NCBI RefSeq assembly: GCF_000270245.1
Contig: NC_015635.1
Coordinates: 2,232,001 to 2,296,000, forward strand
Source: Microlunatus phosphovorus NM-1
Lineage (GTDB): Bacteria; Actinomycetota; Actinomycetes; Propionibacteriales; Propionibacteriaceae
Direction: 5' to 3'
Length of the DNA: 64,000 bases
The notes under the pieces are model-generated. The model worked only from the letters and a program-made list of their open reading frames with translations. It made no database searches and was not told the DNA's origin. The position numbers were made by a program, and so were the translations under genes. Positions 568-64,000 of this stretch are shown here, piece after piece (the stretch's first letter is position 1; every line of letters begins with the position of its first letter).

Positions 568-577
568 GGTCTCATCG

Positions 578-2034: not shown

Positions 2035-2063
2035 GATGCAGCAGCTACTCATTGAGATCTGCT

Positions 2064-2533: not shown

Positions 2534-2755
2534 CATGACCTCCGAATCGAAGCTGACACAGCGTCGGAGAAGGCGCCGTTTCCCCTCACCGTAGCCCTGT
2601 TCGGTGGCTCGCGATAGCCAGAGAAGGCTTGCCTCACGGGTCTGAGGAGCCCTCACTTCGCCCGCGCCGATCGGTGACGACAGTCATCGATAACAGCTTG
2701 ATCGCGAGACACACTGGACGGCGTACCGACATCGTCGAGGGAGCGGAGGACCAAC

Positions 2756-4883: not shown

Positions 4884-4962
4884 CGTCGCATGGTCTCACT
4901 GCCCAACCGGCTGCCCGACCTCGGGATTGTGAAAGGTTTGATGCGACCTCGCACCATGACTT

Positions 4963-6105: not shown

Positions 6106-6190
6106 GAGCGCAAGTCTGCCAACACTCGCGCGCCTGGCCGGGCCGAGGTCAGCTGGCGGGTAGGGTCGCACGCGATGAATGCCGTCCCTT

Positions 6191-6236
6191 GCCGGAGAGC
6201 ATGTGATGACTGAGCCGGAGAGCATGCGATGACCGA
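6191..6236 (+). repeat. 23-bp tandem duplication over the ddl start, creating an 8-codon upstream ORF
   Basis: The 23-base unit beginning GCCGGAGAGCATG is present twice (6191-6213, 6214-6236) with two changes. Each copy carries a GGAGAG ribosome site and an ATGA. The first copy opens a frame ATG 6206 (MTEPESMR) whose TGA at 6230-6232 overlaps the ddl ATG at 6229 as ATGA. If translated, it would couple to ddl. Confidence 0.65.
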
Positions 6237-7437
6237 CAGCCCCACCATCCGTCCCCGCAACGTTCGCCCTCGCGTCGCCGTTGTCTTCGGCGGTACGAGC
6301 AGTGAGCATGCGATCTCCTGCCTGACCGCAGGCAGTGTGCTGAACGCCATCGATCGGGATCGCTACGAGGTGGTCGCGATCGGCATCGCTCCGAGCGGTC
6401 GCTGGGTCGTGGTGCCCGACGACTTGGCCGGCCAGATGCAGGTCATCGACGGGGTGTTGCCCTCCCTCAGCGAGGAACTGCTCGACGCGATCTGGCTGCG
6501 GACGGCCGGGGGCAGCGACCTGGCGATTGCCGCGGATCCCCGGGGGAGCATGGACTCCGACGAGAGCGGCACGTTGCTGACGGCCGACGACGCCTCGACC
6601 GGCGAGTCGGCGCTGTCCAGGCTGGGCTCGGTCGACGTGGCCTTCGCGCTGCTGCACGGCCCGTTCGGTGAGGACGGCACCATCCAGGGCATGTTCGAGA
6701 TGATGGGCACCCGCTATGTCGGAGCCGGGGTGCTCGCCAGTGCGGTCGGGATGGACAAGACCTACATGAAGGTCGTGCTGGCCGCTGCCGGACTGCCTGT
6801 CGGGCCGTTCGTGTCGATCCTGCCACGGGAGTGGTCTCGAGACCGGAGCGCTTGCCTGGAGGCCGTGGCCGCACTGCATCGCCCGCTCTACGTCAAGCCA
6901 GCCCGTGGCGGATCCAGTCTCGGCATTACTCGAGTCGGTGAGGGCGACGATCTGGTCGCTGCCGTCGAGCATGCCCAGCAGTTCGATCCGAAGGTGATCG
7001 TCGAGGAGGGCTTCGTCGACGCTCGTGAGCTGGAGTGCGGCGTCCTGGGCGGACTCGCCGGGGCCGATCCGGAAGCCAGCCAGGTGGCCGAGATCCGGGT
7101 GCACACCGACTCCGGGTTCTATGACTTCGATGCCAAATACCTGCCCGAGGAGCAGGTCGATCTCGACGTTCCCGCCGACGTCGATGCCGACATCGCCGAG
7201 GAGGTACGCCGGCTGGCGGTGCGGACCTTCGAAGCCATCGGCTGCGAAGGGCTGGCTCGAGTCGATGTGTTCGTCACCCGGGACCGGAAGGTCTACGTCA
7301 ACGAGATCAACACCATGCCCGGGTTCACCGCGCTCTCGATGTTTCCGCGGATGTGGGCCGCCAGCGGCATGGCCTACCCCGAGTTGGTGGATCGGCTGCT
7401 GCAACTCGCGATGGAGCGTCCGGTCGGTTTGCGCTAA
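6229..7437 (+). CDS. ddl: D-alanine--D-alanine ligase
   Basis: 402 residues, ATP-grasp enzyme that joins two D-alanines for peptidoglycan precursors. Visible: VAVVFGGTSSEHAISC at the N-terminus, the ATP loop KPARGGSSLGITRV, and the C-terminal FVTRDRKVYVNEINTMPGFT segment with the metal-binding Glu and Asn. The Ser-Met type spacing NTMPGFT is usual for true Ddl enzymes. Start ATG 6229 has GGAGAG upstream and overlaps a tiny upstream frame (see 6191-6236). It lies in the conserved ddl-DUF3515-Lrp-thiL block. Confidence 0.97.
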   Translation: MTDSPTIRPRNVRPRVAVVFGGTSSEHAISCLTAGSVLNAIDRDRYEVVAIGIAPSGRWVVVPDDLAGQMQVIDGVLPSLSEELLDAIWLRTAGGSDLAIAADPRGSMDSDESGTLLTADDASTGESALSRLGSVDVAFALLHGPFGEDGTIQGMFEMMGTRYVGAGVLASAVGMDKTYMKVVLAAAGLPVGPFVSILPREWSRDRSACLEAVAALHRPLYVKPARGGSSLGITRVGEGDDLVAAVEHAQQFDPKVIVEEGFVDARELECGVLGGLAGADPEASQVAEIRVHTDSGFYDFDAKYLPEEQVDLDVPADVDADIAEEVRRLAVRTFEAIGCEGLARVDVFVTRDRKVYVNEINTMPGFTALSMFPRMWAASGMAYPELVDRLLQLAMERPVGLR

Positions 7438-7508
7438 GCATTGATCTCCGGGCCCTCGATCTCCGGGCACGGAGGCGAGCGTCATCAAACGCGGAGCATG
7501 ATGGCGTC

Positions 7509-7859
7509 ATGCGCGTACATCGCATCATCGCCAATCTCTCCGTCCCCGATATAGAGGCGGCCAGGAGCTTCTACGAGGGCTTCCTCGGCCTGGGCGAGGA
7601 GTTCAGTTTGGGCTGGGTAGCCCGCTTCACGTCCGCCGAGGCCGGCGGATGTGTCCAGCTCGTCACCGCCGACGCAACGTCTCCTGAGGACTCGGTCGCC
7701 TCAGTGCTGGTCGATGACGTCGAGAGCGCGTACGCCGAAGCGCTGCGGCTGGGCTACGAGATCGTACGTCCGCTGACGACCGAGGAGTGGGGCGTACACC
7801 GATTCCTGGTCCGGGCACCCGACGGCAATGTGCTCAACTTCGTGGAGCACCCGAACTGA
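7509..7859 (+). CDS. Glyoxalase/VOC superfamily protein
   Basis: 116 residues with the beta-alpha-beta-beta-beta layout twice: ANLSVPDIEAARSFYEGFLGL in the first half and a closing FLVRAPDGNVLNFVEHP in the second. The metal-binding positions (His/Glu near residues 4, 49 and 111) are plausible but incomplete, so it may be a binding protein rather than an enzyme. Start ATG 7509 fits the family's usual beginning. It interrupts the usual ddl-DUF3515 neighbourhood. Confidence 0.8.
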   Translation: MRVHRIIANLSVPDIEAARSFYEGFLGLGEEFSLGWVARFTSAEAGGCVQLVTADATSPEDSVASVLVDDVESAYAEALRLGYEIVRPLTTEEWGVHRFLVRAPDGNVLNFVEHPN

Positions 7860-7874
7860 GGTCGCGGAAACGGC

Positions 7875-8342
7875 TCATAGGCAGGGTTGCTTGACTGGGA
7901 TCGTCTTGACCGCCTCAGCCAGGTCGACCAGGGCATGCGCCTCTGGTGCGTACTTCGAGGGAACTCCGACCTGGACATAAGCCGGGCGGCCGATCGTGGT
8001 GAACAGGTAGCCGCCCTCAGCCTCTTCGGCGAACCAGCCGACGCCGTTCACCTCGAAGCACTCGCTCTCCGCCCCCAGACCTGGTGGCTTGTCGACACCG
8101 CACTTCAGCGTGATGGTCGGATCGCCCCAGGCGGCCGACAACTGGCCGGGATCGACGGTCCGGCGGTGTTGGTCCAGCACGATCTCCGGCAGCGCGCCCA
8201 TCAACGCCGCGCACTGAGCCCGGACCGCTGCCGACGGGTTGGCGTCGGCCATCGTGACCGTCCGCGAGCAGCCGATCGCCGAGGCCAGCACCAGGCTGGC
8301 GCCGAGGACTACGGCTGCGCCGTAGTGAGGGAGGCGGCGCAG
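7875..8342 (-). CDS. DUF3515 family lipoprotein
   Basis: Secreted lipoprotein family found next to ddl and thiL in actinobacteria; function unknown. Cys residues at the CAALMGALP and CFEVNGVGWFAEE segments and the ending YLFTTIGRPAYVQVGVP match DUF3515. The first ATG/GTG in frame (GTG 8291) would cut the signal peptide in half; the frame continues upstream as RRLPHYGAAVVLGASLV then LASAIGC, a full lipoprotein signal with lipobox cysteine. I therefore extend to the CTG at 8342, which has GAGG about 9 bases upstream. The non-standard start is an inference; GTG 8291 is the fallback. Confidence 0.8.
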   Translation of the reverse strand: MRRLPHYGAAVVLGASLVLASAIGCSRTVTMADANPSAAVRAQCAALMGALPEIVLDQHRRTVDPGQLSAAWGDPTITLKCGVDKPPGLGAESECFEVNGVGWFAEEAEGGYLFTTIGRPAYVQVGVPSKYAPEAHALVDLAEAVKTIPVKQPCL

Positions 8343-8353
8343 GATCGAGGGCC

Positions 8354-8590
8354 TCAGATGTGGACGACCGGGCAGGTGACCGTCCGGGTGATGCCGGGCA
8401 CGTTCTGGACTTGAGCCACCACCAGTGCGCCGAGCTCATCGACGCTGGCTGCCTCGGCGCGCACGATCACGTCGTACGGGCCGGTCACGTCCTCGGCGAG
8501 CGTGACACCCTGGAGCGCGCCGATGGCGCGGGCGACATCGGCTGACTTGCCGACGGTGGTCTGCACCAAGATGTATGCCTGAACGACCAT
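8354..8590 (-). CDS. Lrp/AsnC-type ligand-binding domain protein (stand-alone RAM domain)
   Basis: 78 residues: only the effector-binding beta-alpha-beta-beta-alpha-beta domain of Lrp regulators (AYILVQTTVGKSADVARAI, then the GPYDVIVRAEA core), with no DNA-binding helix-turn-helix. Such proteins form ring oligomers and sense amino acids in other bacteria. ATG 8590 has CGGAGG 6 bases upstream. It ends 11 bases before the DUF3515 start on the same strand and is divergent from thiL. Confidence 0.9.
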   Translation of the reverse strand: MVVQAYILVQTTVGKSADVARAIGALQGVTLAEDVTGPYDVIVRAEAASVDELGALVVAQVQNVPGITRTVTCPVVHI

Positions 8591-8717
8591 GCTGTTCCTC
8601 CGATTCGAGCCACGCTGTCACGTCGCCCTGCCGCTCGTGCCGCACTGGGAGACGCCGTCAACCTACCGTGTGAACTGAAACGGCATAAGACCTGCTGACC
8701 AAGAGAGAGTTGAGATC

Positions 8718-9749
8718 TTGCCCATCGGCCCCAATTCCGCCGGCTCCCTTCCCACCGGGCCTGCTCGCTCCGGCACGGGTCGCTCGGGACCCACCCTGGG
8801 CGAGTCCGGTGAGTTCGCCCTCATCGCCCGGATCGTCGCCGACCTGCCGCCCTCGGCGGAAGTGGTGCTCGGGCCGGGGGACGATGCCGCAGCGCTGGCC
8901 ATCGAACCACCGGTGCTCACCTCGGTGGATGTCCTGGTCGAAGGTGTCCACTTCCGCCGCGACTGGTCTTCGGCCGCCGACGTCGGCCGCAAGGCTGTGG
9001 CGGTGAACGTCGCCGACATCGAGGCGATGGGAGGCCGGGCGGTGGCGGTCGTCGTCGGCCTGTCGGCACCTGCGGATCTGCCCTTGGCCTGGGCGCTGGA
9101 GCTGGCCGACGGCATCCGGTCCGAGGGTGAGCGCGCCGGGGTCACCCTGGTGGGCGGCGACGTCACCGGCGCCAGGGACGTCACGATCTCGGTCACGGTG
9201 CTCGGTGGACTGGACGGCGGGCCGCTGATCAGGCGCTCCGGCGCCGGGTCTGACCAGGTCGTCGCGCTGACCGGGCGGACCGGCTGGGCTGCCGCCGGTA
9301 TGGCGGTGCTGCAGCGCGGCTTCCGGTCCCCGCGAGCCGTCGTCGAGGCTCAGCGGGTGCCCGAGGTGCCGTATGGGCAGGGCCGGGTGGCCGCCGAGGC
9401 GGGCGCGACGGCGATGATCGACGTCTCCGACGGTCTGCTGGCCGACCTGGGGCACGTGGCGCGCGCCTCGGGAGTGATGGTCGAGTTGGACCTGTCAGCC
9501 TTCCCGGTGCCCGATGTCTTGCGGGCCGTGGCGGCAGCGACCGGCAAGGACCCGTACGCGCTGCTGCTGACCGGTGGTGAGGACCATGCGCTGGCCGCGT
9601 GCTTTTCCAGCGCGGACCAGGTGCCCGACGGCTGGCGAGTGGTCGGCCGGACCCGGCAGATCGGCGAGGATGAGGAGCCCGGGGTGCTGGTGGACGGTGC
9701 GCCCTGGAAAGGTGCCGCAGGCTGGGATCACTTCGGAGGCGGGAGATGA
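8718..9749 (+). CDS. thiL: Thiamine-monophosphate kinase
   Basis: 343 residues; phosphorylates thiamine phosphate to thiamine diphosphate. PurM-like fold: [11 protein letters not shown] (metal/ATP), [48 protein letters not shown] and LTGGEDHAL are all present in the right order. The start is a TTG (8718) with a GAGAGAG tract upstream; an unusual 25-residue Ser/Gly/Pro-rich N-terminus precedes the conserved GEFALI. It overlaps thiD by four bases (ATGA), so the two are translated together. Confidence 0.95.
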
Positions 9750-10558
9750 ACGTGGGGGAGCGGCGGCTGCCGACGGCACGGGTGTTGACCATCGCCGGAT
9801 CCGATTCCGGCGGCGGTGCCGGGATCCAGGCCGATCTGAAGACCCTGCTGGCCTTCGGTGTGCACGGGATGAGTGCGCTGACCGCGATCACCGCGCAGAA
9901 TTCGGTCGGCGTCCAGGGCTGGTGGCCACTGCCGGACGAAGCCGTCCGCGCGCAGGTACGCAGTGTGGTGGACGACATCGGCGTGGACGCCGTGAAGACG
10001 GGGATGCTCGGGACGGCGTCCACCACGCGGCTGGTCGCTGAGCTGTTGGCGGAGCTGCCCGACGAGGTGCCGGTGGTGGTGGATCCGGTGTGCGCGAGCA
10101 AGCACGGCGACGCGCTGATCGCCGATGACGCGGTGGCGGCCCTGCGGGATGAGCTGCTGCCGGTGGCCACGGTGATCACGCCCAATCTGCCCGAGGCCAG
10201 CCTGCTCGCCGGGCGGGACGGGTCGCCGCGCGAATTGGCCGAGGTGCTGCTGGGATTCGGACCGGCCTGGGTGCTTATCAAGGGTGGACATGCCGAGGGC
10301 GATCCGATCGACCAGCTGTACGGCGCCGACGGCACCGCCAAGGCGTTCGCTGCGGCGCGGTCGAACAACCGGCACAGCCACGGCACCGGCTGCACGTTGG
10401 CGTCGGCAATCGCGAGCCGGCTGGGGTGGGGCGACGATGTGGTCAGCGCGGTCGCGGCGGCCAAGGAATACATCACCGGCGCGGTGGCAGCCGGCTTTCC
10501 CCTCGGGGCCGGGATTGGTCCCACCGACCACCTCTGGCGGCTCCGACGCCATCTCTAG
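9746..10558 (+). CDS. thiD: Hydroxymethylpyrimidine/phosphomethylpyrimidine kinase
   Basis: 270 residues, ribokinase-like fold. Converts HMP to HMP-PP in thiamine synthesis. Motifs: [19 protein letters not shown] at the N-terminus, [14 protein letters not shown], and the C-terminal [13 protein letters not shown] with the GTGC anion hole and catalytic region. Coupled to thiL through ATGA. No TPP riboswitch is visible upstream of thiL. Confidence 0.95.
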
Positions 10559-10635
10559 GAGGCTCCCGGAGGGCAGATCGAGATGGGCTCGTGGATTCTC
10601 GATCGCTACCGACGGCGGGGTGTCGGATCCGCTAG

Positions 10636-10710
10636 GTCCGACTTCGCACCAACTATGGCTACTGCCCCCGGCAGACCTGGTGCGCAGAAGACGCAGCTGG
10701 TGCGAAGTGG
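10636..10710. repeat. ~75-bp dyad repeat element, copy A
   Basis: Begins TCCGACTTCGCACCAACT and ends CAGCTGGTGCGAAGT, so its ends are inverted repeats. An internal GACCTGGTGCGCAGAAGACG block completes it. A second copy in the opposite orientation is at 25831-25910 and aligns along its whole length. Placed between thiD and ftsK; the rest of the 10559-10801 gap holds only the ftsK promoter. Confidence 0.75.
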
Positions 10711-10801
10711 GGGTGGGCGAGGCGAGCGTCACTCAGTCGATACTCAGCAATCCGCGTGGGACTGCTGTGACTGAAGTGGTGATCGCGTAGGCTGCTGGAC
10801 T

Positions 10802-13429
10802 ATGGCGACCCGCGTGCCTTCCCCACCGCGGTCGCGAGCAAAAGCCAGCACCTCATCCGGTGCCGGCTCGCCGCCGCGGTCGTCAGGAAGCAAGACCAAG
10901 TCCACTACCTCCGCGCGCTCTGGGAGTTCCCGGAGCGGCAGCCGTACGCCCAGTCGCGGTCCCGCCAAGAAGCCCAATCACCGCCCGGCCTCGCGGTCGG
11001 GTTCCCGGTCGCGCCAGTCGCGGCGCTCGATCCTGGCGAGCATCGGCGCCGGACTGGTCGCGATCTGGCTCGGTCTGGCCCATCTGGTCGGCTCGGCGAT
11101 CCGGGCCATTGGCACCAGCGCGCGTGACCTCGACCCGGCGCTGCGGCGCGATGGCGTCGGCCTCTTCCTGATCGGCACCGCCATCATCATTGGTGCCGAG
11201 TTCTGGTTCGGGCTGCCCGGCAGCGTCGGCACGGCCGTCCACCTCGGCGTCTCCACCTTGATCGGCACCCTGGCGTACGCGGCGCCGCTGCTGCTGATCG
11301 TGATGGCCTGGCGCACGATTCGTCACCCCGAGCGCAACGGCCCCGGCGGCCGCCAGTTCGTCGGCTGGTCGGCGATCACCTTCGGGCTGCTCGGCCTGAT
11401 CAACATCGCCGACGGACTGCCGCGCACCAACAATCCCGAGGCGCTGCGCGAGGCGGGTGGCATCGCCGGTTATCTGTCCTCGAGTCTGCTGGCCGACCTG
11501 CTCACGCCCTACGTGGCCGTGCCGCTGCTGGTGCTGCTGCTGGGCTTCGGTGTGCTCGTCGTGGTCGGCATCCCGCTGCATCAGATCCCCGGTCGGGTGC
11601 GGGACCGGATGGAGCCCTTCCGTCGTCCGCTGGTGATCCGCGGCGAGGTCGAGGACTATCACGGCGACGAGGCGTACGAGACGCCGGTGATCGAGGAGCG
11701 TCCGAAGCGGGGCAAGCGCAAGCAGGCCGCGCTGACCGCCGAGGCGGAGCTGGACTTCGATCCGGCTGAGGGCATCGCCCTGGAGCCCGATCTCGACGCC
11801 TCCGCCGTCTTCGGCGAGGAGGCCGTGGCGCCGACGTCGGAAAAGCCCAAGAAGGTGACCGCCGGCCTGCCGCCGGGTGTCAAGGTGCACGAGAGCCCCG
11901 AGCTCGAGGCCCCGGCACACACCCCGATCCCACAACGAGTCGAGCAGTTGCAGCTGTCCGGCGACGTGCAGTATCTGCTGCCGGACTCCGAGCAGCTGCG
12001 CCAGGGCAGCGTGCACCGCTCTCGCACCGAGGCCAGCGACGGGGTCGTCGGCGCGCTCACCGGTGTGCTGGAGCAGTTCGAGATCGACGCAGCGGTCACC
12101 GGCTACACCCGGGGACCGACCGTCACCCGCTACGAGGTCGAGCTCGGGCCTGCGGTCAAGGTCGAGAAGGTCACCGCACTCAGCAAGAACATCGCGTACG
12201 CGGTAGCCAGCGCGGATGTGCGGATCCTGTCGCCGATCCCCGGCAAGTCGGCGATCGGCATCGAGATCCCCAACACCGACAAGGAAGTCGTCTCCCTCGG
12301 TGACGTGCTCCGGTCGGGGAAGGCGCGCAACGACCATCACCCGATGACCGTCGGGTTGGGCAAGGACGTCGAGGGCGGTTTCGTGGTCGCCAATCTGGCC
12401 AAGATGCCGCACCTGCTGGTGGCCGGCGCCACCGGCTCCGGCAAGTCGAGCTTCGTCAACTCGATGATCACCTCGGTGATGATGCGGGCGACGCCGGACG
12501 AGGTCCGGATGTTGCTGGTCGACCCCAAGCGCGTCGAGCTGACCGCGTACGAGGGCATCCCGCACCTGGTCACGCCGATCATCACCAACCCGAAGAAGGC
12601 GGCCGAGGCGCTGCAGTGGGTGGTGCGCGAGATGGACATGCGCTACGACGACCTCGCGGCGTTCAACTTCCGGCACGTCGATGACTTCAACAAGGCGGTC
12701 CGGGCCGGGTCGGTGAAGCCGCTGGAAGGCTCGGAGCGGGTGCTCGCGCCCTACCCGTACCTGCTGGTGATCATCGACGAGCTCGCCGACCTGATGATGG
12801 TCGCCCCGCGCGACGTCGAGGACTCGATCGTCCGGATCACCCAGCTGGCCCGCGCGGCCGGCATCCACCTGGTGCTGGCCACCCAGCGGCCGTCGACCGA
12901 CGTGGTCACCGGTCTGATCAAGGCCAACGTGCCCAGCCGGCTCGCGTTTGCGACGTCCTCGATGACCGACTCCCGGGTCATCCTCGACCAGCCGGGCGCG
13001 GAGAAGCTGGTCGGTCAAGGCGACGGACTGTTCCTGCCGATGGGGTCGAGCAAGCCGATCCGCATCCAGGGTGCCTGGGTCACCGAAGCCGAGGTCAGGA
13101 CTGTCGTCGGGCACGTCACCGAGCAGCTCAAGCCGGTCTATCGCGAGGACATCAGTGCCCCCGCGGAGTCGGCGAACAAGGTGGCCGAGGACATCGGCGA
13201 CGACCTGGACCTGGTGCTGCAGGCGGTCGAGCTCGTGGTCACCTTGCAGCTCGGCTCCACCTCGATGCTGCAGCGCAAGCTGCGGGTGGGCTTCGCCAAG
13301 GCCGGCCGGCTGATGGACATCTTGGAGACGCGTGGCGTGGTCGGTCCGTCGGAGGGCTCCAAGCCACGTGAGGTGCTGGTCAAGCCCGACGAGCTCGATG
13401 CCGTGGTGGACAACCTGCGGGCAGGCTGA
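10802..13429 (+). CDS. ftsK: DNA translocase FtsK/SpoIIIE
   Basis: 875 residues. Septal ATPase that pumps chromosomal DNA during division. A ~75-residue Ser/Arg/Pro-rich cytoplasmic start is followed by four membrane segments (about residues 75-260), a linker, then the motor: Walker A GATGSGKSSFVNS, Walker B LLVIIDELADLMM, and a C-terminal gamma winged-helix domain (TSMLQRKLRVGFAKAGRLM). ATG 10802 follows TAGGCT by 8 bases, suggesting a leaderless transcript. Upstream of rimO-pgsA-cinA-clgR as in mycobacteria and relatives. Confidence 0.97.
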   Translation: MATRVPSPPRSRAKASTSSGAGSPPRSSGSKTKSTTSARSGSSRSGSRTPSRGPAKKPNHRPASRSGSRSRQSRRSILASIGAGLVAIWLGLAHLVGSAIRAIGTSARDLDPALRRDGVGLFLIGTAIIIGAEFWFGLPGSVGTAVHLGVSTLIGTLAYAAPLLLIVMAWRTIRHPERNGPGGRQFVGWSAITFGLLGLINIADGLPRTNNPEALREAGGIAGYLSSSLLADLLTPYVAVPLLVLLLGFGVLVVVGIPLHQIPGRVRDRMEPFRRPLVIRGEVEDYHGDEAYETPVIEERPKRGKRKQAALTAEAELDFDPAEGIALEPDLDASAVFGEEAVAPTSEKPKKVTAGLPPGVKVHESPELEAPAHTPIPQRVEQLQLSGDVQYLLPDSEQLRQGSVHRSRTEASDGVVGALTGVLEQFEIDAAVTGYTRGPTVTRYEVELGPAVKVEKVTALSKNIAYAVASADVRILSPIPGKSAIGIEIPNTDKEVVSLGDVLRSGKARNDHHPMTVGLGKDVEGGFVVANLAKMPHLLVAGATGSGKSSFVNSMITSVMMRATPDEVRMLLVDPKRVELTAYEGIPHLVTPIITNPKKAAEALQWVVREMDMRYDDLAAFNFRHVDDFNKAVRAGSVKPLEGSERVLAPYPYLLVIIDELADLMMVAPRDVEDSIVRITQLARAAGIHLVLATQRPSTDVVTGLIKANVPSRLAFATSSMTDSRVILDQPGAEKLVGQGDGLFLPMGSSKPIRIQGAWVTEAEVRTVVGHVTEQLKPVYREDISAPAESANKVAEDIGDDLDLVLQAVELVVTLQLGSTSMLQRKLRVGFAKAGRLMDILETRGVVGPSEGSKPREVLVKPDELDAVVDNLRAG

Positions 13430-56425: not shown

Positions 56426-57364
56426 GTGCTCGGAGTGCTCGCCGGGTTCGTGACCATCGCCGCGGTCATCGGAGTCGGCGCCGCCCTGGCTCAATGGCGG
56501 ATCCTGGACGAAGGCGGCCAGCGGACGCTGATCCAACTCTCCTTCTTCGTGGCCAGTCCGTGTCTGATGGTCACAGTCCTCGGTGACACCGACGTCAGCC
56601 ACGTGTTCTCTGCCAACCTCGTCGCCTCCATCGGCAGCGTGCTCGTCTCGGCCGTTGTCTGGATCGGGTTGGCGCGCCTGGTGTGGCGCCGGAATCTGGG
56701 CGATACCGTCATCGGCACCTTCGCCTCCTGCTACGTCAACGCCGGCAACCTGGGTCTGCCCATCACCGCGTACGCGCTGGGCAACGTCGGCTACATCGTG
56801 CCGATGCTGCTGACCCAGATGCTGGTCCTGCAGCCGATCGGCCTGATGTTGCTCGACCTGGCCTCGGGTGCCGGCCGCGACATCTCCCGGCGAGACTGGC
56901 TCGTCTCGATGCTGACCCGGCCGTTTCGCAATCCGCTGACGGTCGGCGCGCTGGCCGGTCTGCTCCTCTCGATCACCGGCTTCGAGTTACCACGGCTCGT
57001 CGCCGATCCGCTCGAGTTGATTGCCGGAATGGCCATTCCCGGGATGCTGCTCGCGTACGGGGTGTCCCTGCGGATGGGTCCGCGGCCGGGGTCGGGGGAG
57101 CAGAGCAGCCAAGTTGCGACGATCGTCGCTCTGAAACTCGTCGTCCAGCCGTTGGTCGCCATCCTGATCGCCAAGTTTGCCCTGGGCCTCGAGGGGCAGG
57201 ACGTCTTCGCCGTGGCCGTGGTGGCCGGACTGCCGACCGCGCAGAACGTGTTCACCCATGCCGTTCGATACCAGCGTGCGGTCATCCTGGCCAGGGACGC
57301 GATCATTCTCACCACGATTCTGGCCGTACCGGCGCTGATCGTGATCGCCGCCTTGCTCGCCTGA
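56426..57364 (+). CDS. AEC-family (auxin efflux carrier-like) transporter
   Basis: 312 residues with ten predicted helices in two halves: LSFFVASPCLMVTVL and CYVNAGNLGLPITAYALGN in the first, and IPGMLLAYGVSLRMGP and AGLPTAQNVFTHAVRYQ in the second. These crossover motifs mark AEC permeases, which move small organic acids such as malate or malonate. GTG 56426 with AGGAGGAG upstream. It may be unrelated to the sugar locus after it. Confidence 0.9.
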   Translation: MLGVLAGFVTIAAVIGVGAALAQWRILDEGGQRTLIQLSFFVASPCLMVTVLGDTDVSHVFSANLVASIGSVLVSAVVWIGLARLVWRRNLGDTVIGTFASCYVNAGNLGLPITAYALGNVGYIVPMLLTQMLVLQPIGLMLLDLASGAGRDISRRDWLVSMLTRPFRNPLTVGALAGLLLSITGFELPRLVADPLELIAGMAIPGMLLAYGVSLRMGPRPGSGEQSSQVATIVALKLVVQPLVAILIAKFALGLEGQDVFAVAVVAGLPTAQNVFTHAVRYQRAVILARDAIILTTILAVPALIVIAALLA

Positions 57365-57482: not shown

Positions 57483-58640
57483 ATGCCTTGCGAAACCGTC
57501 CGCTGCGCCGTTGTCGGCCTGGTGCAGGGACTCGAAGACGTCTACACGACTCTTCACCACCCGCGGTACACGCTGGTTGCCGTGTGCGACCAGAACCCAC
57601 AGCGCTGGCGTTGGCTGACTGGCGAGGAGGATGTCGACAAGGTCGACGAGAGCGCGGCGCTGTTCCCGCATCACAAGGAGTGGGTACGCGAGTCTCGCAA
57701 GGCGGCGGGCTTTGCAGACGTCGAGTACCTCCCTGACTTCGACGACGTGCTCGCGCGCGACGACATCGACGCCGTGATTCTCGTGCTGCCAGACCTCTTG
57801 CATGCCGAGTATGCGATCAAGGCGCTGGAGGCCGGCAAGGACGTGCTGTCGACCAAGCCGATGGCCCGCACGCTGGACGAGGCGTTCGCCATCGCCGATA
57901 GCGCGCGTCAGCATCCGAACCACTTCATGCTCGGTTTCCAGGTGAGCTACAGCGGTTTCGCGACGGCGGTGCGTGAGGTCATTGCGACCGGCGAGATCGG
58001 CACTCCGCGTCAGCTTCGCTTCGACTTCGACCGCGGTCCGTGGCGCCCGGTTCATCGCAAGAAGTACGCCGAGGTGGACGGCTCGATGATCAAGGAGGGC
58101 GTCCACTGGCTCGACATGATCTACCGGCTGAGCGGTGAGCTGCCCTGGCGGGCGATCGCCGGATTCGGCGGCCAGGAGACCTTCCCGGACGACTTCGAGT
58201 TCGAGGACAGCGGCGTGCTGATCATCGACTACCCGGGCTTCCGTGCCGCGCACACCTTCAGCTACTTCCGGCAGCCTCTGACCCGTTCCGAGGACTTCCT
58301 GCTGATCGGTGACAAGGGAACGATCCGCGGCACGTTCGAGCAGTTCGCCGTCGAGACCGACGCCGGCACCCGGACGATTGTGCCGACCACGAGTCCGCTG
58401 CCCGCGCAGTACCACAACGGCTACTACGAGATGGCCGATGCCTTCGCGGCAGCTGTTCTCGACGGGATCGAGCCTTACACGAACTGGCGGACCGGGCTGG
58501 AGAACATGCTCACCTGCCATGCGGCACAGGTCGCCGTGGCGGGCAACACGATGGTCACCCGCGAGTCTCTTGCCGACCTCGATTGGCGAGTCAAGTTCGG
58601 CCAGGAGACCAGCTCGGCCGCGCAGCTGATCGAGGCCTGA
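57483..58640 (+). CDS. Gfo/Idh/MocA-family protein; candidate NAD+-dependent sulfoquinovosidase
   Basis: 385 residues. N-terminal dinucleotide-binding half (CAVVGLVQG), STKP with Lys125 in the place of the family EKP motif, and EGVHWLDMI (His208, Asp211), the usual H-x2-D pair. Most relatives oxidise sugars or cyclitols with NAD+. In Arthrobacter a branch of this family (SqgA, GH188) hydrolyses sulfoquinovosides by transient oxidation. This gene starts a sulfo-EMP locus that lacks a YihQ-type glycosidase in view, so that role is a reasonable inference, not proven. ATG 57483 has AAGGAAA upstream. Confidence 0.85.
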   Translation: MPCETVRCAVVGLVQGLEDVYTTLHHPRYTLVAVCDQNPQRWRWLTGEEDVDKVDESAALFPHHKEWVRESRKAAGFADVEYLPDFDDVLARDDIDAVILVLPDLLHAEYAIKALEAGKDVLSTKPMARTLDEAFAIADSARQHPNHFMLGFQVSYSGFATAVREVIATGEIGTPRQLRFDFDRGPWRPVHRKKYAEVDGSMIKEGVHWLDMIYRLSGELPWRAIAGFGGQETFPDDFEFEDSGVLIIDYPGFRAAHTFSYFRQPLTRSEDFLLIGDKGTIRGTFEQFAVETDAGTRTIVPTTSPLPAQYHNGYYEMADAFAAAVLDGIEPYTNWRTGLENMLTCHAAQVAVAGNTMVTRESLADLDWRVKFGQETSSAAQLIEA

Positions 58641-58643
58641 CCT

Positions 58644-59261
58644 GTGACATTCGCTGCGTCGGAGCTGATCGTTCCCAGCGGGTGGGTCGGTGTCCCCACC
58701 CGTCAGCTCATCAATGCGCGATCGGGCTCCGCGCTGTGGATGTCAACCGCTGTCCAGCTCGTCCGCGCGGACGACAGACTGGTGGCCAGGTTCGTCTGCG
58801 CGGCGCGGAGCATTCGAGCCACGATGACGCACTACAAGGACAAGGTCTGGCAGGAGGGGGCCGTCCAGGTCTATCTGCGTCCGCCCGGCGATCCGCGCCT
58901 CTACGAGTTTCAACTGAGCCCGCTCGGCACGACGCGCGACCTCCTGGTCCACGACCCGGGAACCCCCGCTCAGGTCTTCGACGATTCCTGGTCCTGCGAG
59001 GGTCTCGCGACCGCCGCGTGGATCCATCGCGACGAGGATGGCAAGGTCGAGGGGTGGGAGGCAGCCTTCATGATCCCGTTGGCGGCGATGGTGGGTGCAG
59101 ACGTGGCATCTGCGGCTGGCTGGCGGGTGGGCGTCTTCCGGCTCGAGTACGACCCGGTGGAGTTCGGCGCTCTTGCCGCGGACCCCACGGCTGGCGCCCA
59201 CGCGGACGTGTTCCTGGTGGATCTGGACAGCTGGGTAGCGAGGGCCACGAGCAGCGTCTGA
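58644..59261 (+). CDS. CBM9-like carbohydrate-binding/DOMON-type protein
   Basis: 205 residues. WQEGAVQVYLRPPGDPRLYEF and a later GWEAAFMIPL follow the pattern of stand-alone CBM9-type domains (W-x-D/E-x-V-x-v-f-l-x-P, then Y-x-F/e). No signal peptide, so it is probably cytosolic. GTG 58644 is 3 bases after the Gfo/Idh/MocA stop, so the two are one operon. Its job is unknown; a role in sugar-substrate handling is inferred from position. Confidence 0.7.
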   Translation: MTFAASELIVPSGWVGVPTRQLINARSGSALWMSTAVQLVRADDRLVARFVCAARSIRATMTHYKDKVWQEGAVQVYLRPPGDPRLYEFQLSPLGTTRDLLVHDPGTPAQVFDDSWSCEGLATAAWIHRDEDGKVEGWEAAFMIPLAAMVGADVASAAGWRVGVFRLEYDPVEFGALAADPTAGAHADVFLVDLDSWVARATSSV

Positions 59262-59288
59262 AGTCGACGAGCAGTGTCTGACGTCACT

Positions 59289-59326
59289 GTGCCGTGTCAG
59301 GTCAGGAACCTGACCTGACACGGCAC
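59289..59326. terminator. Bidirectional terminator with perfect 18-bp stem
   Basis: GTGCCGTGTCAGGTCAGG and its exact complement around a 2-base loop (AA), between the convergent CBM9-like and isomerase genes. Confidence 0.85.
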
Positions 59327-59339
59327 CTCGCTGGCTCCG

Positions 59340-60578
59340 TCAGAGTACGGAGTCGAGAAGACCTGCGGCGAGGGCCGGAGCCATCGCCGGGGCCAGGGGG
59401 AGCCGGGGCACGAGCAGGCAGTGCATCAGGTGATAGATGTCCGGCTTGCCATCCCAGACTTCCTGGGTCGGTCGATTGTCCGGGTCGAGTTCCTGATGCC
59501 AGGAGCCGCCCTCCATGTCCATCAGGTACGTGCGCGCATAGTCCCAGAAGCGCTCGTACCACTGGTCGTATTTCTGATCGCCAGTCTCGCGGTAGAGCGC
59601 CGCAGCGCCACCCATCGCCTCCACGACGACCCACCGGATGCGCTCTCGGACAATCGGCTGCCCGTCCCAGCCGACGGTGTAGACGAAGCCGCGCTTGCCG
59701 TCCGGCTCCCAGGCATCCCGGACCGCCGCGTCGAACAGGCCAGCCGCGTCTTCGACGAGCCAGTCCGGCGCCTCCATGCCACGCGCTCGGAGGCTGTCCT
59801 TCAGCGAGATCAGCAGCCGAGACCATTCGGTCCAGTGCCCCGGAGTTCCGCCGTAGGCGCGAAATCGGTGGGCCCGATTCTCGGAGTTGTAGTCGAACAG
59901 CGGCGTCCACGATTCGTCGAAGTGCTCGACCACGCGATAGCTGTTGTTCCGCGCCACACCGTGAATGATCCGCTGCGCGATGGTGAGTGCCCGATCCAGC
60001 CACTTGTGGTCGCCAGTGACATCGGCGACCACCAGGAACGCTTCGACGGCATGCATGTTCACGTTGCCGCCGCGGTAGGCCTCGGTCTCAGTGAAGGTCT
60101 CGTTCCAGAGCTCGCGGCACATCTGCTCGCTCTCACTCCAGTAGTAGCGCTCGATCACCTCGATCGCTCGGTCGAGAAGCTTGTGCGCCTCAGGCCGCCC
60201 GGCAGCACTCGCGCTGGCCGCGCCGAGAAGCACGAAGAAGTGGGCGTACCCGGGCTTGTCTCGCTCCACCGGTCCGTCCTCGTTGACTGAGGAATACCAA
60301 CCGTCGTTGGTCTGATCCCAGAAGTGCCTGGTCAGCGCCTCGATGCCGTGATCGGCAAGCACCCCGGCACCCGGACGACCGAGCAGGGACGCCAGGGAGT
60401 AGACATGGATCATCCTCGCCGTGATCCACAACTGAGTCGGCATGTCGCCACGAACGACGCCTTGGTTGCTGAGCCAGCCGAAACCGGTGGGCACCACGGC
60501 GTTCCGTCCGAACTCGAATGTTCGATCTGCTTCCGTCTCCAACCAGCGTGCGTGCGCCGGAGATGACAGCCATGCCAT
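59340..60578 (-). CDS. yihS: Sulfoquinovose isomerase (YihS-type, AGE family)
   Basis: 412 residues, the length of E. coli YihS. It converts sulfoquinovose to sulfofructose, the first step of sulfo-EMP. The (alpha/alpha)6-barrel active-site residues fall at the same numbers as in E. coli: His176 ([10 protein letters not shown]), His248 and Glu251 ([10 protein letters not shown]) and His383 (DIYHLMHC). The whole N-terminus ([25 protein letters not shown]) is also YihS-like rather than mannose-isomerase or GlcNAc-epimerase-like. Convergent with the Gfo/CBM9 operon. Confidence 0.92.
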
Positions 60579-60625
60579 GTGACCCTCGTTCCGCTAGAGA
60601 TCCAGCCTCGATCTGATAATAACTC

Positions 60626-60656
60626 AACATCAAATGTTAGAGATACAACGTATTGT
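60626..60656 (-). promoter_or_regulatory. Candidate operators upstream of the isomerase gene
   Basis: AACAT-caa-ATGTT (60626-60638) and ACAA-cgta-TTGT (60645-60656) lie in an AT-rich pocket 48-78 bases before the isomerase ATG. They are plausible sites for the (now broken) DeoR-type repressor or another regulator. Confidence 0.4.
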
Positions 60657-60692
60657 GGTGAATCGGTCGCAGGGGTGGACTCGATCGACGGC

Positions 60693-61105
60693 TTAGTGTT
60701 TGATCTTCGACACAAGGACCAGGTCGACATCAAGGGCATCGCCCCGTTCCCGCAGCTCTGCGGGAACGGGGCCGTTCGTGACGATGCTCGACAGCGCGTC
60801 GAGGTCGACCAGCTTCACCGGAGCGGTGTGGGTCAGCTTGGCACCGTCGACAAGCAGCACGACGCGCGACGCCCGTTGAATGAGTGCGGATTTGATGGGG
60901 GACTCGCGGTCACCACGCAGGTACGTGCCGGTGGCGTCGATGCTGTTGGCACCGAGAAAACACACATCCACCGAGAGCTCCAGCGCCGCGGCGGTGGAGC
61001 GCGGAGCGCGCTGATCGAGGCAAACCCTGAGCGTTGCAACTCGGCCAGGATCGCCGCTGCGCGCTCCTCGACCGTCATCCGTGGGGCTTGCGTCTCGGTC
61101 ACCAA
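60693..61105 (-). pseudogene. DeoR-family (YihW-like) regulator with internal deletion and frameshift
   Basis: From ATG 61105: TVEERAAAILAELQRSGFAS, the first helix of a DeoR helix-turn-helix, then the frame breaks near 61015. Another frame continues with VDVCFLGANSIDATGTYLRG, SALIQRASRVVLLVDGAKL and the usual DeoR ending to 60693. About 110 codons (rest of the HTH and half of the sugar-phosphate sensor) are missing from a gene of normally ~250 codons. YihW, the E. coli sulfo-EMP repressor, is of this family. Confidence 0.85.
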
Positions 61106-61160
61106 GTCTGGCCCCTCATGGGGAGGATATTACACGTTCGAAATGCGACACGAATCGATG

Positions 61161-61188
61161 TTGACTTAACACCAGGCTGTGTTACGTT
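61161..61188 (+). promoter_or_regulatory. Promoter with overlapping operator for the kinase/aldolase operon
   Basis: TTGACT (61161-61166), 16-base spacer, TACGTT (61183-61188), then 6 bases to ATG 61195: a leaderless promoter. TAACAC-caggct-GTGTTA (61167-61184) is an inverted repeat lying exactly across the spacer, a likely repressor site. Confidence 0.75.
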
Positions 61189-61194
61189 ACCGAC

Positions 61195-61477
61195 ATGGCC
61201 CAGGCTTTCGGAGTGGACCGGGGCGTTGACCCAGGTGCCAACCTTCTCTGTCGAGGTCGTCAGCACCCTCGGGGCGGGCGATGTCTTCCACGGTGCGCTG
61301 GTCGCCGCGCTGGCCGACGATCATCCACTTCCCGATGCCGTATGCCGCGCGAACGCCACGGCGGCGCTGTCTTGCCGAGTGCTCGACGGTCGAGGGGCGA
61401 TCCCCACCTTGTCCGAGCTCAACACCTTCCTGGCCAGCCAGCCGGATCCATCGGCTGCTTCGTCCGATCTCACCTAG
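61195..61477 (+). pseudogene. PfkB-family sugar kinase (YihV-like), N-terminal two thirds deleted
   Basis: The leaderless ATG 61195 is kept, but after about 13 codons the kinase sequence resumes in another frame at VPTFSVEVVSTLGAGDVFHG (GAGD catalytic loop), and runs through CRANATAALSCRVLDGRGAI to TAG 61477. About 200 residues, including the sugar-binding site, are absent. Read from 61195, the other frame is open straight through into the aldolase. The position matches the sulfofructose kinase of sulfo-EMP operons. Confidence 0.85.
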
Positions 61478-61488
61478 GAGTGACCTCA

Positions 61489-62376
61489 ATGGCGCATGTC
61501 CGTGCCGGTACCGACCTGTCTCCGCTACAGCGATCCGGAGGCGGATTCGCCATGCTGGCCGTGGACCAGCGTGAGGCAATGCGGAACATGTTCGCCGAGC
61601 ACACCGCAGAGCCGGTCACCGATCAGGATCTGCAGGACTTCAAGGTCGCTGCCGCCCGGATCCTCACGCCGTACGCCTCGGCGGTCTTGGTCGACAAGCA
61701 GTTCGCGTTCGACGCCGTCGTCGACCAGCACGCGGTCGCGGACGGCTGTGGGCTGATCGCCGCAGCTGATCATTTCGAGTCCGCCAACGGTGAACTGGTC
61801 GGTCGGGTCACCATCGACCCACAGGTCGTTCCGGCGCGGGTGAAGGAGCAAGGCGCCGTCGCGCTGAAGCTGCTCGTGCTGTGGCGGGAAGACGAGCCCG
61901 CCGGCCCGCGAGTCTCGATGGTGGAGCAGTTCGTCGATCTCTGCCGCAACACGGGCCTGATCTCGATCATCGAACCGGTCTCCCGTGGCCGGGCCGACCG
62001 CCGCCCGAGTGACACGGAGGCCGGCGTACTGGCGGCGGCTCGCGAGCTGGGTCGACTCGGTGCGGACCTGTACAAGGCCGAGGTGCCGCTGAAAGGCCAG
62101 GGCGACCAGGCGGAGATCCGACGCCGCTGCGCGGAGATCACCGCTGCGGTCGACAGCCCCTGGGTGGTGCTGAGCTCCGGTGTCCCACAAGATCTGTTCC
62201 CCGAAGCAGTCCGCACTGCGATGAGTGAAGGTGCGAACGGTTTCCTGGCCGGTCGCGCCGTGTGGGCCAGCTGCATCGGGGCGGCCGACGTCGAGCAGCA
62301 ACTGCGGGAGGCCGCGGTGCAGCGCCTGCAGAACCTGGCCGCGATCGTCGACGAACAGATGGCGGCGCGCACATGA
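61489..62376 (+). CDS. yihT: 6-deoxy-6-sulfofructose-1-phosphate aldolase (YihT-type, class I)
   Basis: 295 residues. Cleaves SFP to DHAP and sulfolactaldehyde. SGGGFAMLAVDQREAMRNMF, DFKVAAARILTPYASAVLVD, ALKLLVLWREDE, GADLYKAEVPL (Schiff-base Lys196) and SSGV followed by GFLAGRAVWASCIG match YihT along the full length, better than tagatose-bisphosphate aldolase LacD. ATG 61489 has AGGAG 8 bases upstream. Because the broken kinase leaves an open frame from 61195, a version with 98 extra N-terminal residues could also be made. Confidence 0.92.
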   Translation: MAHVRAGTDLSPLQRSGGGFAMLAVDQREAMRNMFAEHTAEPVTDQDLQDFKVAAARILTPYASAVLVDKQFAFDAVVDQHAVADGCGLIAAADHFESANGELVGRVTIDPQVVPARVKEQGAVALKLLVLWREDEPAGPRVSMVEQFVDLCRNTGLISIIEPVSRGRADRRPSDTEAGVLAAARELGRLGADLYKAEVPLKGQGDQAEIRRRCAEITAAVDSPWVVLSSGVPQDLFPEAVRTAMSEGANGFLAGRAVWASCIGAADVEQQLREAAVQRLQNLAAIVDEQMAART

Positions 62377-62444
62377 CCACAGCCGTCCCGCCCCACCTGC
62401 CTACCACCGCCGACCTGCTCGGCATCCCCGTCGTCGAGTGGTGA
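62373..62444 (+). other. 23-codon ORF overlapping the aldolase stop; possible gene remnant
   Basis: ATGA overlap with the aldolase, then MTTAVPPHLPTTADLLGIPVVEW and stop. This is the spacing of a real downstream gene, but it ends at once. It may be the surviving 5' end of a further pathway gene cut by deletion, or a leader for the binding-protein gene 34 bases later. Confidence 0.3.
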
Positions 62445-62478
62445 CCTGCCACCTCGACCAGACCGTCACCAATGGAGG

Positions 62479-63762
62479 TTGACCCGCTCCATCTCTCGTC
62501 GCACGCTTCTCGCCCTGATGGGCGGGGCCGGCGCCGCTGCCACGCTCGGTGCGTGCGCCGGCCCCGGTTCGACCGCTCCCAAGGGCGGCGAGGGTGCCGC
62601 CCCAGCGACCGGCGACGCCAAGGGCGAGGTGTCCTTCGCCCACTGGCGCGCCGAGGACAAGGCCGCATTCGACAAGCTGATCGAAGAGTTCCAAGCCAAG
62701 TTCCCCGATATCACGGTGGAGCAGGACATCAGCCCGTCGAACGACTACCAGACCCAGGCGCTCAACCGGCTCAAGGGCGGCTCTGCGGGAGATGTCTTCC
62801 CGACGTTCCGCGGCGCACAGTTCCAGCAGTTCGTCAAGGCCGGGGTCTACACCGACCTCAGCAACGAGGACTTCGTCGCCAACTACAACCCGGCCATGTT
62901 GGAGGCCGGCAAGTCCGACGGCAAGCAGTACGGCCTGCCCTACCAGGTGGTGCTGCCGATGCCGATCGCCAACAAGAGTCTGCTCTCCTCGGCCGGGGTC
63001 GATGCGCCGCCGGAGACCTGGGACGGGTTCCTGGACATGTGCGACAAGCTCAAGTCCAAGGGCGTGGTGCCGTTGGCCTGGCCCGGCAACGCTCCCGGCG
63101 ATGCCGGCCAGCTGTTCAACACCATGGTGATGAACGAGCAGCCCAGTGACGATGCGTGCGCTCAGATCGAGGCCGGCACCATGAAGACCACCGATGAGTG
63201 GTTCGTCGGCATGCTGAAGAAGTACGCGGAGTTGCGGCCCTACTTCCAGCCGAATGCCGTGGGGACGGTCGTCGAGCCGCTGCAGCAGCTGTTCGTGAGC
63301 GAGAAGGCGGCGCTGCTGTGCACGGGCAGCTACCACATCTCGGCGGTCCGATCCCTGGGTGCCAAGTTCGATCTCGAGCTGGTGCCGCCGATCACCGTGA
63401 ACAGCAATCCCAAGTATCTCGGCAGCTACAACGCCACCTTCATCCTCGGCATCAACGCCGCCTCCAAGGTCCAGCCGGCCGCGGTCGAGTGGCTCCGGTT
63501 CCTCTCCGACAAGCAGTACGCGGGCGAGTACGCCAACGCCACGGTGCAGAACGTGTCCGTGGCCGGAGTCGAGTACACCAACCCGGACCTGAAGGCACTC
63601 GCGCCGTGGCTGGAGAAGACGCTCATGCTGGCACCGCGATTCCAGTTCAACGACCTCGACATCCGCAGTGCGGTCGAGGGCAGCTGCATCGCGGTGGTCG
63701 GCGGCACCGACCCCGCCGAAGCTGCTGCGAAGGCCCAGAAGGTCATCGACCAGCGGATCTGA
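62479..63762 (+). CDS. ABC transporter sugar-binding lipoprotein (CUT1), candidate for sulfoquinovose/sulfoquinovosyl glycerol
   Basis: 427 residues. Tat-lipoprotein signal SISRRTLLALMGGAG with lipobox TLGAC, then an SBP-family-1 fold: FDKLIEEFQAKFPDITVEQD, YGLPYQVVLPMPIANKSLL, ETWDGFLDMCDKLKSKGV, FILGINAASKVQPAAVEWL. Comparable proteins (SmoF in Agrobacterium) bind sulfoquinovosyl glycerol; specificity here is inferred from the locus. TTG 62479 is the only start that keeps the twin-arginine signal, but GGAGG is directly next to it, so the exact start is uncertain. Confidence 0.88.
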   Translation: MTRSISRRTLLALMGGAGAAATLGACAGPGSTAPKGGEGAAPATGDAKGEVSFAHWRAEDKAAFDKLIEEFQAKFPDITVEQDISPSNDYQTQALNRLKGGSAGDVFPTFRGAQFQQFVKAGVYTDLSNEDFVANYNPAMLEAGKSDGKQYGLPYQVVLPMPIANKSLLSSAGVDAPPETWDGFLDMCDKLKSKGVVPLAWPGNAPGDAGQLFNTMVMNEQPSDDACAQIEAGTMKTTDEWFVGMLKKYAELRPYFQPNAVGTVVEPLQQLFVSEKAALLCTGSYHISAVRSLGAKFDLELVPPITVNSNPKYLGSYNATFILGINAASKVQPAAVEWLRFLSDKQYAGEYANATVQNVSVAGVEYTNPDLKALAPWLEKTLMLAPRFQFNDLDIRSAVEGSCIAVVGGTDPAEAAAKAQKVIDQRI

Positions 63763-63845
63763 CCTACCAAGGCGACCCGGCGCCGGATGGTGCCGGGTCC
63801 GGCCCCTCCCACAAACCGCCACCGATGTCGCTCACTGGAGGCCCG

Positions 63846-64000
63846 ATGACCACGCAAGAACTGACACCCCCGCCCGCCCCCGCGCAGACGTCCAAGCGAA
63901 GGCGCCGGTCGGCGACCGAGGCGCGGCCCACCCTCTTTCTCTTTCCGCTCCCCGCGCTGGTGATCTTCACGATCTTCTTCGCCATCCCGACACTGCAGGC
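63846..64000 (+). CDS. ABC sugar transporter permease (MalF type), cut by window end
   Basis: First 51 codons: a charged cytoplasmic N-terminus (PAQTSKRRRRSATEARPT) then the first membrane helix (LFLFPLPALVIFTIFFAIPT). This is the usual start of a CUT1 MalF-type permease, following its binding protein by 83 bases. GGAGG 5 bases before ATG 63846. The gene continues beyond the window. Confidence 0.8.
   Translation, partial: MTTQELTPPPAPAQTSKRRRRSATEARPTLFLFPLPALVIFTIFFAIPTLQ

Follow-up and report, generated by a model that had tools for sequence, protein, structure and literature searches.

We characterized a locus of the actinobacterium Microlunatus phosphovorus NM-1 (contig NC_015635.1) that lies at the end of a 64,000-nucleotide stretch of DNA (genome 2232001-2296000, hereafter the window) and continues past it. 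The locus is probably the decayed remnant of an actinobacterial sulfoquinovose cluster of the sulfoglycolytic Embden–Meyerhof–Parnas (sulfo-EMP) type, extended with a module predicted to cleave sulfolactate. Gene identities, gene order, the lesions and the intact relatives can be read directly from the DNA. The initial annotation had reported a sulfo-EMP locus in a high-GC Gram-positive bacterium; its gene calls and pathway name stand, its full gene set does not, as the kinase and the DeoR-type regulator are broken, and clusters of this type had already been published (PMC8873060). The source genome is a single contig of 5,683,123 bases, rated 100% complete with 0.01% contamination. The cluster is laid out as follows, in window coordinates unless marked as genome coordinates:

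57483-58640, + strand: Gfo/Idh/MocA-family oxidoreductase (Gfo protein), 385 amino acids, intact (Pfam GFO_IDH_MocA)
59340-60578, - strand: YihS-type sulfoquinovose isomerase, 412 amino acids, intact (by clade and identity to YihS)
60705-61078, - strand: remnant of a CsqR/DeoR-type regulator (DeoRC, and tblastn with the regulators of intact relatives)
61220-61477, + strand: C-terminal remnant of a predicted sulfofructose kinase of the PfkB family (Pfam PfkB)
61489-62376, + strand: YihT-type sulfofructose-1-phosphate aldolase, 295 amino acids, intact (by clade and identity to YihT)
62479-63762, + strand: CUT1 solute-binding lipoprotein of a sugar ATP-binding cassette (ABC) transporter (SBP_bac_1; binding proteins at the corresponding position of related clusters are 48-62% identical)
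From 63846 across the window end (genome 2295846-2296820), + strand: CUT1 permease 1 (BPD_transp_1)
Genome 2296822-2297637, past the window end: permease 2
Genome 2297647-2299879, past the window end: glycoside hydrolase family 31 (GH31) glycosidase, broken
Genome 2299928-2301382, past the window end: GabD-type aldehyde dehydrogenase, the expected sulfolactaldehyde (SLA) dehydrogenase
Between the GabD-type gene and SuyA, past the window end, - strand: GntR regulator
Genome 2302496-2302801: predicted SuyA (SAF domain)
Genome 2302780-2303942: predicted SuyB, in two frames, broken (UxaA-like domains GD_AH_second and GD_AH_C)
Genome 2303939-2304883: SlcC-like 2-hydroxyacid dehydrogenase (2-Hacid_dh)
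Genome 2304883-2305899: ComC-like dehydrogenase (Ldh_2)

Alignment of the isomerase with Escherichia coli YihS (63% identity) showed that H176, H248, E251 and H383 are invariant, bearing out the initial annotation, which had placed all four at the E. coli positions. Searching PDB, we obtained 618-622 bits to four YihS chains and 154 bits to the next protein; judged as sequence comparisons, matches of such strength (up to 622 bits) are not due to chance. In a tree of 55 rows (54 different) drawn from 92 matches, the isomerase falls inside a 27-row clade that also holds E. coli YihS, the isomerase of Arthrobacter sp. AK04 and other cluster isomerases, with a Shimodaira–Hasegawa-like approximate likelihood ratio test (SH-aLRT) value of 100; among the rows of this clade, the window protein and one other protein account for two each.

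The aldolase is 52% identical to E. coli YihT and 68% identical to the aldolase of Arthrobacter sp. AK04. As had been proposed, it matches YihT over practically its full length (residues 11-294 of 295 in YihT structures, at 295-301 bits, compared with at most 69 for tagatose aldolases), with K196, the proposed Schiff-base residue of this class I aldolase, aligned to a lysine of E. coli YihT. In a 66-row tree, for which 66 of 125 matches were kept, it lies inside a 42-row clade with E. coli YihT (SH-aLRT 97). Phylogeny thus places both enzymes inside, and not outside, the YihS and YihT clades, in trees that leave out most enterobacterial loci and some duplicates, that were built by a 'quick' method with SH-aLRT as the sole support measure and carry long-branch warnings, and whose outgroups are uncharacterised homologues from the same order (Propionibacteriales) and include no experimentally characterised mannose isomerase or LacD aldolase.

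The CUT1 transporter of the initial annotation is also present, its second permease lying past the window end. The SLA dehydrogenase, which had been suspected to lie past base 64000, appeared on reading the genome onward, as the GabD-type gene at genome 2299928-2301382. Its product (484 amino acids, resembling succinate-semialdehyde dehydrogenase (SSADH)) shares 57-63% identity with the dehydrogenase of full clusters and 38-44% with those in L067, L068, L080 and L129 (loci compared here carry L numbers), and is the expected SLA dehydrogenase, predicted to be of the oxidative type as in Arthrobacter. Further on, SuyA and SuyB adjoin the SlcC-like and ComC-like genes, and the SuyB reading frame is not intact. 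This SuyB is 71% identical to the SuyB of L065, which is itself 62% identical to a Cupriavidus pinatubonensis protein encoded beside hpsN and hpsO, and 83% identical to Rhodococcus plasmid proteins. One of the latter sits in a run of GntR, a UxaA-type pair, aldehyde dehydrogenase, major facilitator superfamily, oxidoreductase, hydroxyacid dehydrogenase and Ldh genes. The ComC-like protein scores 171 on the L-sulfolactate dehydrogenase model (cut-off 500). The putative SuyAB assignment rests on gene order and similarity.

Intact relatives show what the cluster would have contained. Arthrobacter sp. AK04 (L046), which grows on sulfoquinovose and excretes sulfolactate (PMC8873060), carries a regulator, kinase, aldolase, transporter, SLA dehydrogenase and isomerase, and the same core order with an intact kinase was found in L046, L060, L062, L063, L066 and L122. 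The sulfolactate module is shared with L065, a contig labelled as an Acidobacteria metagenome-assembled genome (MAG), in which the run SuyA, SuyB, SLA dehydrogenase, SlcC, ComC, CsqR, YihS, kinase, YihT, Gfo protein, solute-binding protein, permease, permease, GntR is open throughout. In a census of 391 genomes of the order, SuyB and the Gfo protein were each found in the source genome alone (1/391 each, E<=1e-60). The aldolase occurs in 30 of the 391, the source genome included (E<=1e-40), at identities of 40-65% outside the source genome, and the cluster GH31 group in four (E<=1e-130), each time within 6 kb of the aldolase. A plasmid search with the Gfo protein gave no match at E<=1e-40, and one with the GH31 group returned three haloarchaeal records at ~43% and no further clusters.

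Two plasmid-borne loci with YihT-like aldolases were observed separately. L182, on a Cereibacter sphaeroides plasmid (2658-13255), encodes a YihT-like aldolase (58-59%), a sugar kinase, an SSADH, a tartrate dehydrogenase, an alcohol dehydrogenase and a complete ABC transporter; no YihS-type isomerase is among the genes listed for it, in a gene table that is incomplete. L183, on the conjugative plasmid pYA7-1a of Arthrobacter sp. YA7-1 (529-13143), combines a YihT-like aldolase with a PfkB kinase, an SSADH, TauE, a galactonate dehydratase, a lactonase and a Gfo/Idh/MocA protein, and resembles the published Paracoccus sulfofucose pathway, here with an actinobacterial host.

The lesions are largest in the kinase and the regulator. 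Both fragments are where the initial annotation had seen them, but they do not complete a sulfo-EMP set as it had supposed. The kinase remnant, whose PfkB fragment lies at 61226-61477, covers only positions 242-300 of the 302 of Pfam PfkB, so that about three quarters of the gene is gone, and what remains shares 44-57% identity with the C-termini of seven cluster kinases that are intact. The regulator persists as a C-terminal sensor piece (~60705-61007, - strand; DeoRC positions 89-159 of 160) and an N-terminal piece of 26 residues (~61001-61078) in another frame, with the middle gone; in 200 shuffles, none reached the best score that this short piece has against five relatives. In four relatives with an intact divergent DeoR/kinase pair (L122, L060, L062 and L063), the surviving positions lie 1262-1343 bp apart, compared with 213-255 bp in the window, so that 1049-1088 bp are missing. 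Because the N-terminal regulator piece survives, the alignments suggest separate internal deletions in DeoR and kinase, with the region between the two starts preserved. Going by these comparisons, the two losses (~1 kb in total) are not base-calling errors. By eye, that region (61078-61195) resembles a divergent promoter region that has been kept (TTGACT / TACGTT).

Smaller breaks affect two genes past the window end. The GH31 gene carries one in-frame TAA and an earlier frame change; no other gene of the genome belongs to its group, the next GH31 match being at 29%. SuyB has a frame change near its 3' end, seen by tblastn, by Pfam and in third-position GC. The switch of frame in third-position GC is clear for SuyB and less so for GH31, in which one frame stays high to either side. 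A codon-usage Viterbi scan for frame breaks, run over the window and further stretches, took ordinary gene ends for nonsense events, and nothing was drawn from it.

From gene content and order we infer the substrates, the sequence of reactions and the loss of function. In an intact version, sulfoquinovose or its glycosides would enter through the CUT1 ABC transporter, and a glycosidase would free sulfoquinovose. YihS would then convert sulfoquinovose to sulfofructose, the PfkB-type kinase would phosphorylate this to sulfofructose-1-phosphate, and YihT would split the product into dihydroxyacetone phosphate and sulfolactaldehyde. The GabD-type dehydrogenase would oxidize sulfolactaldehyde to sulfolactate, whose stereochemistry SlcC and ComC would change, and SuyAB would finally cleave sulfolactate to pyruvate and sulfite. 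Because the kinase is internally deleted, the route in the sequenced strain would halt at sulfofructose if no other sugar kinase takes over.

As queries against the genome, E. coli YihV and the L063 kinase each gave six matches, the fragment included, and together six other PfkB proteins; neither these searches nor the kinase tree revealed an intact orthologue of the cluster kinase elsewhere in the genome. Against the cluster kinases, the other PfkB proteins reach at best 45-75 bits, with the exception of a protein resembling 2-keto-3-deoxygluconate (KDG) kinase, which reaches 259 bits against L087_kin; in the tree, L087_kin groups apart with that protein. By comparison, scores against L063_kin are 155-387 bits for 28 cluster kinases and 117 for E. 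coli YihV. The tree unites the 29 cluster kinases in one group (SH-aLRT 91), and no other PfkB protein of the genome falls inside it. The best NCBIfam matches of the six proteins are ribokinase (two), fructoselysine kinase, IolC, KDG kinase and fructokinase, and only IolC passes its cut-off.

Several observations weigh against the view that the cluster has decayed and lost its function. In the kinase tree, E. coli YihV and two genome proteins (at 4186501 and 208749) attach next to the group of 29 cluster kinases but outside it, in an unresolved order and by very long branches, and the 4186501 protein is 33% identical to YihV over residues 6-276, about as close as the actinobacterial cluster kinases are. 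The ribokinase model gives 173 bits to YihV and 207 to the 4186501 protein, both below the cut-off of 300; it is unusable as a ground for dismissing this kinase, given that YihV scores on it too. From these comparisons, a more distant PfkB kinase may stand in for the cluster kinase. The surviving ends of DeoR and kinase flank an apparently kept promoter region, which is odd for one simple deletion. The genes for the Gfo protein, the CBM9-like protein described below, YihS, YihT, the binding protein, both permeases, the SLA dehydrogenase, SuyA, SlcC and ComC are still open, and the coding signal of SuyB is strong on either side of its break, so that decay could be recent or the GH31 and SuyB breaks could be sequencing errors; a single strain was compared.

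The strongest alternative, which we nevertheless regard as unlikely, is that the pathway works. Another PfkB kinase, either the 4186501 protein or the FrlD-like protein at 2324817 (~30 kb downstream), would act on sulfofructose, and the GH31 and SuyB breaks would be sequencing errors or would be tolerated as the Gfo protein frees sulfoquinovose. The six further PfkB-family proteins, the similarity and proximity of one of them to YihV in an unresolved part of the tree and the intact state of YihS, YihT, the transporter and the SLA dehydrogenase are all consistent with this. However, none of the six kinases groups with the 29 actinobacterial cluster kinases, none lies in the cluster, and the ~1 kb of kinase and DeoR deletions are not base-calling errors.

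It is far less probable that the substrate of the cluster is a different sulfosugar or some related sugar, such as an aldose processed by a mannose isomerase and a tagatose-type aldolase. The NCBIfam D-mannose isomerase model gives the window isomerase 509 bits (cut-off 600), YihT-like aldolases are also encoded in clusters where no YihS is annotated, for instance that of pYA7-1a with its galactonate dehydratase, and an aldolase homologue belongs to the cluster of a sulfofucose-degrading Paracoccus (PMC12421959). However, E. coli YihS scores 501 on the same model, which therefore does not separate the two and was set aside as an argument against a YihS function. A second isomerase of this genome (genome 2152789-2154003; L005:8771-10180, - strand), 40% identical to the window isomerase and with an N-terminal extension on its open reading frame, lies with 27 other homologues from the order outside the YihS clade, on a long branch, whereas the window isomerase lies inside; likewise, the aldolase scores 295-301 bits against YihT structures and 69 against tagatose aldolases. 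We also give little credence to an ordinary intact sulfo-EMP cluster with a sulfolactate extension in which the lesions are assembly or sequencing artefacts: the coding signal continues across the SuyB frame change, and less clearly across that in GH31, but an internal loss of ~1 kb in total in DeoR and kinase stands in a single-contig genome rated complete and nearly free of contamination. A decayed sulfo-EMP cluster with a sulfolactate module remains the reading that we favour.

We next consider which enzyme would free sulfoquinovose. We scored 44 loci, comprising 31 of 80 (the actinobacterial ones and L065) and 13 from the source genome or the order; L083 and L124 are one contig, which leaves 43 distinct loci. 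With presence thresholds of 250-300 bits, and SqgA assigned by the R166-L170-K172, E189-H193 and H321 positions (PMC10755693), GH188-type SqgA is present in 18 loci and the cluster GH31 group in 10 (one being the broken copy described here and one cut by a contig end), with both in none and a YihQ-type GH31 in none. The Gfo protein is present in two, L065 and the source locus. In 14 distinct loci, none of SqgA, the GH31 types or the Gfo protein was found (eight are from the order, including distant aldolases; L055 begins 795 bases before its aldolase).

Identity to YihQ is 24-28% for the eight intact GH31 relatives aligned, and 21% and 29% for the two pieces of the broken gene. We take R301, W304 and Y508 (E. 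coli numbering) to be the sulfonate-binding residues of YihQ. R301 and Y508 are not kept in the broken GH31 or in the eight relatives, and both catalytic aspartate positions are; W304 is unmatched in the MAFFT alignment, where a conserved W two residues on (FIWNN) could match with another gap placement, and was not counted. The C-terminal piece scores best against the alpha-glucosidase 5f7c (260 bits), followed by YicI entries (219-222 bits) and YihQ-type entries (123-139 bits). Because of its cluster position and its mutual exclusion with SqgA, we propose this YicI-like GH31 group as a candidate sulfoquinovosidase, through guilt by association; it may have an alpha-xylosidase-like activity on another glycoside.

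The Gfo protein is 62% (61.6%) identical to its L065 counterpart and ~22% identical to SqgA, with 28.5 bits to PDB 8qc2. Of the GH188 columns, it keeps K107, R166, H193 and H321 in three alignment modes, and it does not keep Y136, E163/164, K172 and E189. The lysine and the first histidine of these columns are common in the Gfo/Idh/MocA superfamily. On residues and score, we rejected its identification as a GH188 SqgA. A search of the single L065 genome, run without a positive control, gave no cluster GH31 match at E<=1e-20, so that the glycosidase of L065 could be its Gfo protein.

We advance a wider proposal only tentatively, with less than even confidence. On this proposal the GH31 group would be a second GH31 lineage of sulfoquinovosidases, binding the sulfonate without R301 and Y508; the Gfo protein and its L065 counterpart would be a third, NAD-dependent type outside GH188; and an intact cluster with SuyAB would take sulfoquinovose glycosides to central metabolites and sulfite by sulfo-EMP in one organism. 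No second GH31 sulfoquinovosidase group was found in the accessible text of the literature on GH31 subfamilies and sulfoquinovosidase. For clusters in which both YihQ and SqgA are missing, the GH31 group offers a concrete and readily testable candidate sulfoquinovosidase.

Coupling sulfo-EMP to SuyAB in one cluster would allow a single cell to close the sulfur loop. In the accessible text of the literature searched on sulfoquinovose, SuyAB and Microlunatus, we found no description of this combination in an actinobacterium. What is new here is this arrangement, broken in the source genome and intact in L065; sulfo-EMP in Actinobacteria was already known. The damaged copy also counsels caution where YihS and YihT are the only grounds for inferring sulfoquinovose use, as they would be for a marker-gene survey here. 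The most useful outcomes are the lead that the GH31 and Gfo proteins give on missing sulfoquinovosidases, and the one-cell arrangement of sulfo-EMP with SuyAB.

Three further genes adjoin the cluster:

56426-57364: Mem_trans-family permease, directly 5' of the Gfo/Idh/MocA gene
58644-59261, + strand: CBM9-like protein, 205 amino acids, directly 3' of the Gfo/Idh/MocA gene (Pfam CBM9_2, 25.2 bits against a cut-off of 25)
Genome 2306053-2307048: PF03601 membrane protein, with a LysR regulator next to it

The Mem_trans permease is a possible exporter of the sulfo-EMP cluster, or unrelated to it. Members of the PF03601 family include proteins proposed to export sulfate in sulfonate degraders. Scanning the two proteins encoded upstream of the isomerase with PADLOC gave no match. 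Elsewhere, repeated peptides occur in several overlapping frames on both strands of L005:10350-11430, which by eye resembles a DNA tandem repeat.

Actinobacterial sulfo-EMP has been published (PMC8873060) and reviewed (PMC12890257, PMC9594981), and in a 2026 survey that looked for SuyAB, SlcC and ComC in a selection of genomes, Micrococcaceae were grouped with sulfo-EMP (PMC13372026). We rejected 'sulfo-EMP2' as a name for the present arrangement, as it denotes the SqvD/SqiK/SqiA route in PMC12890257 and PMC9594981. The closest known system is that of Arthrobacter AK01/AK04 (PMC8873060), with kinase, YihT, CUT1-type ABC transporter and GabD-type SLA dehydrogenase in the same order and YihS nearby. 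The locus described here differs in its broken kinase and regulator, in a GH31 in place of the GH188 SqgA, in its SuyAB, SlcC and ComC module, and in an isomerase that lies upstream on the opposite strand. With the E. coli yih cluster it shares the YihS (63%) and YihT (52%) orthologues, but it has an ABC transporter and not YihO, a dehydrogenase and not the reductase YihU, and a GH31 that is not YihQ-like.

The Gfo protein resembles the GH188 NAD+-dependent sulfoquinovosidase SqgA (PMC10755693) as a Gfo/Idh/MocA superfamily gene inside a sulfoglycolytic cluster with four columns kept, and departs from it in its ~22% identity and in Y136, E163/164, K172 and E189. The GH31 protein has the GH31 domains and both catalytic aspartate positions of YicI-type alpha-xylosidases and YihQ-type sulfoquinovosidases; it does not keep R301 and Y508 of YihQ and YicI entries score higher, yet it occupies the sulfoquinovosidase position. 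Finally, SuyAB extensions have been described for the sulfoglycolytic transaldolase (sulfo-TAL) clusters of Thermotogae and Chloroflexi (PMC9594981) and for the sulfofucose Entner–Doudoroff pathway of Paracoccus wurundjeri (PMC12421959), which, like the present arrangement, bring sulfoglycolysis and sulfolactate cleavage together for complete use of the sugar. Unlike in those systems, the upstream half here is a YihS/YihT sulfo-EMP pathway, found broken in an actinobacterium and intact on the L065 MAG contig.

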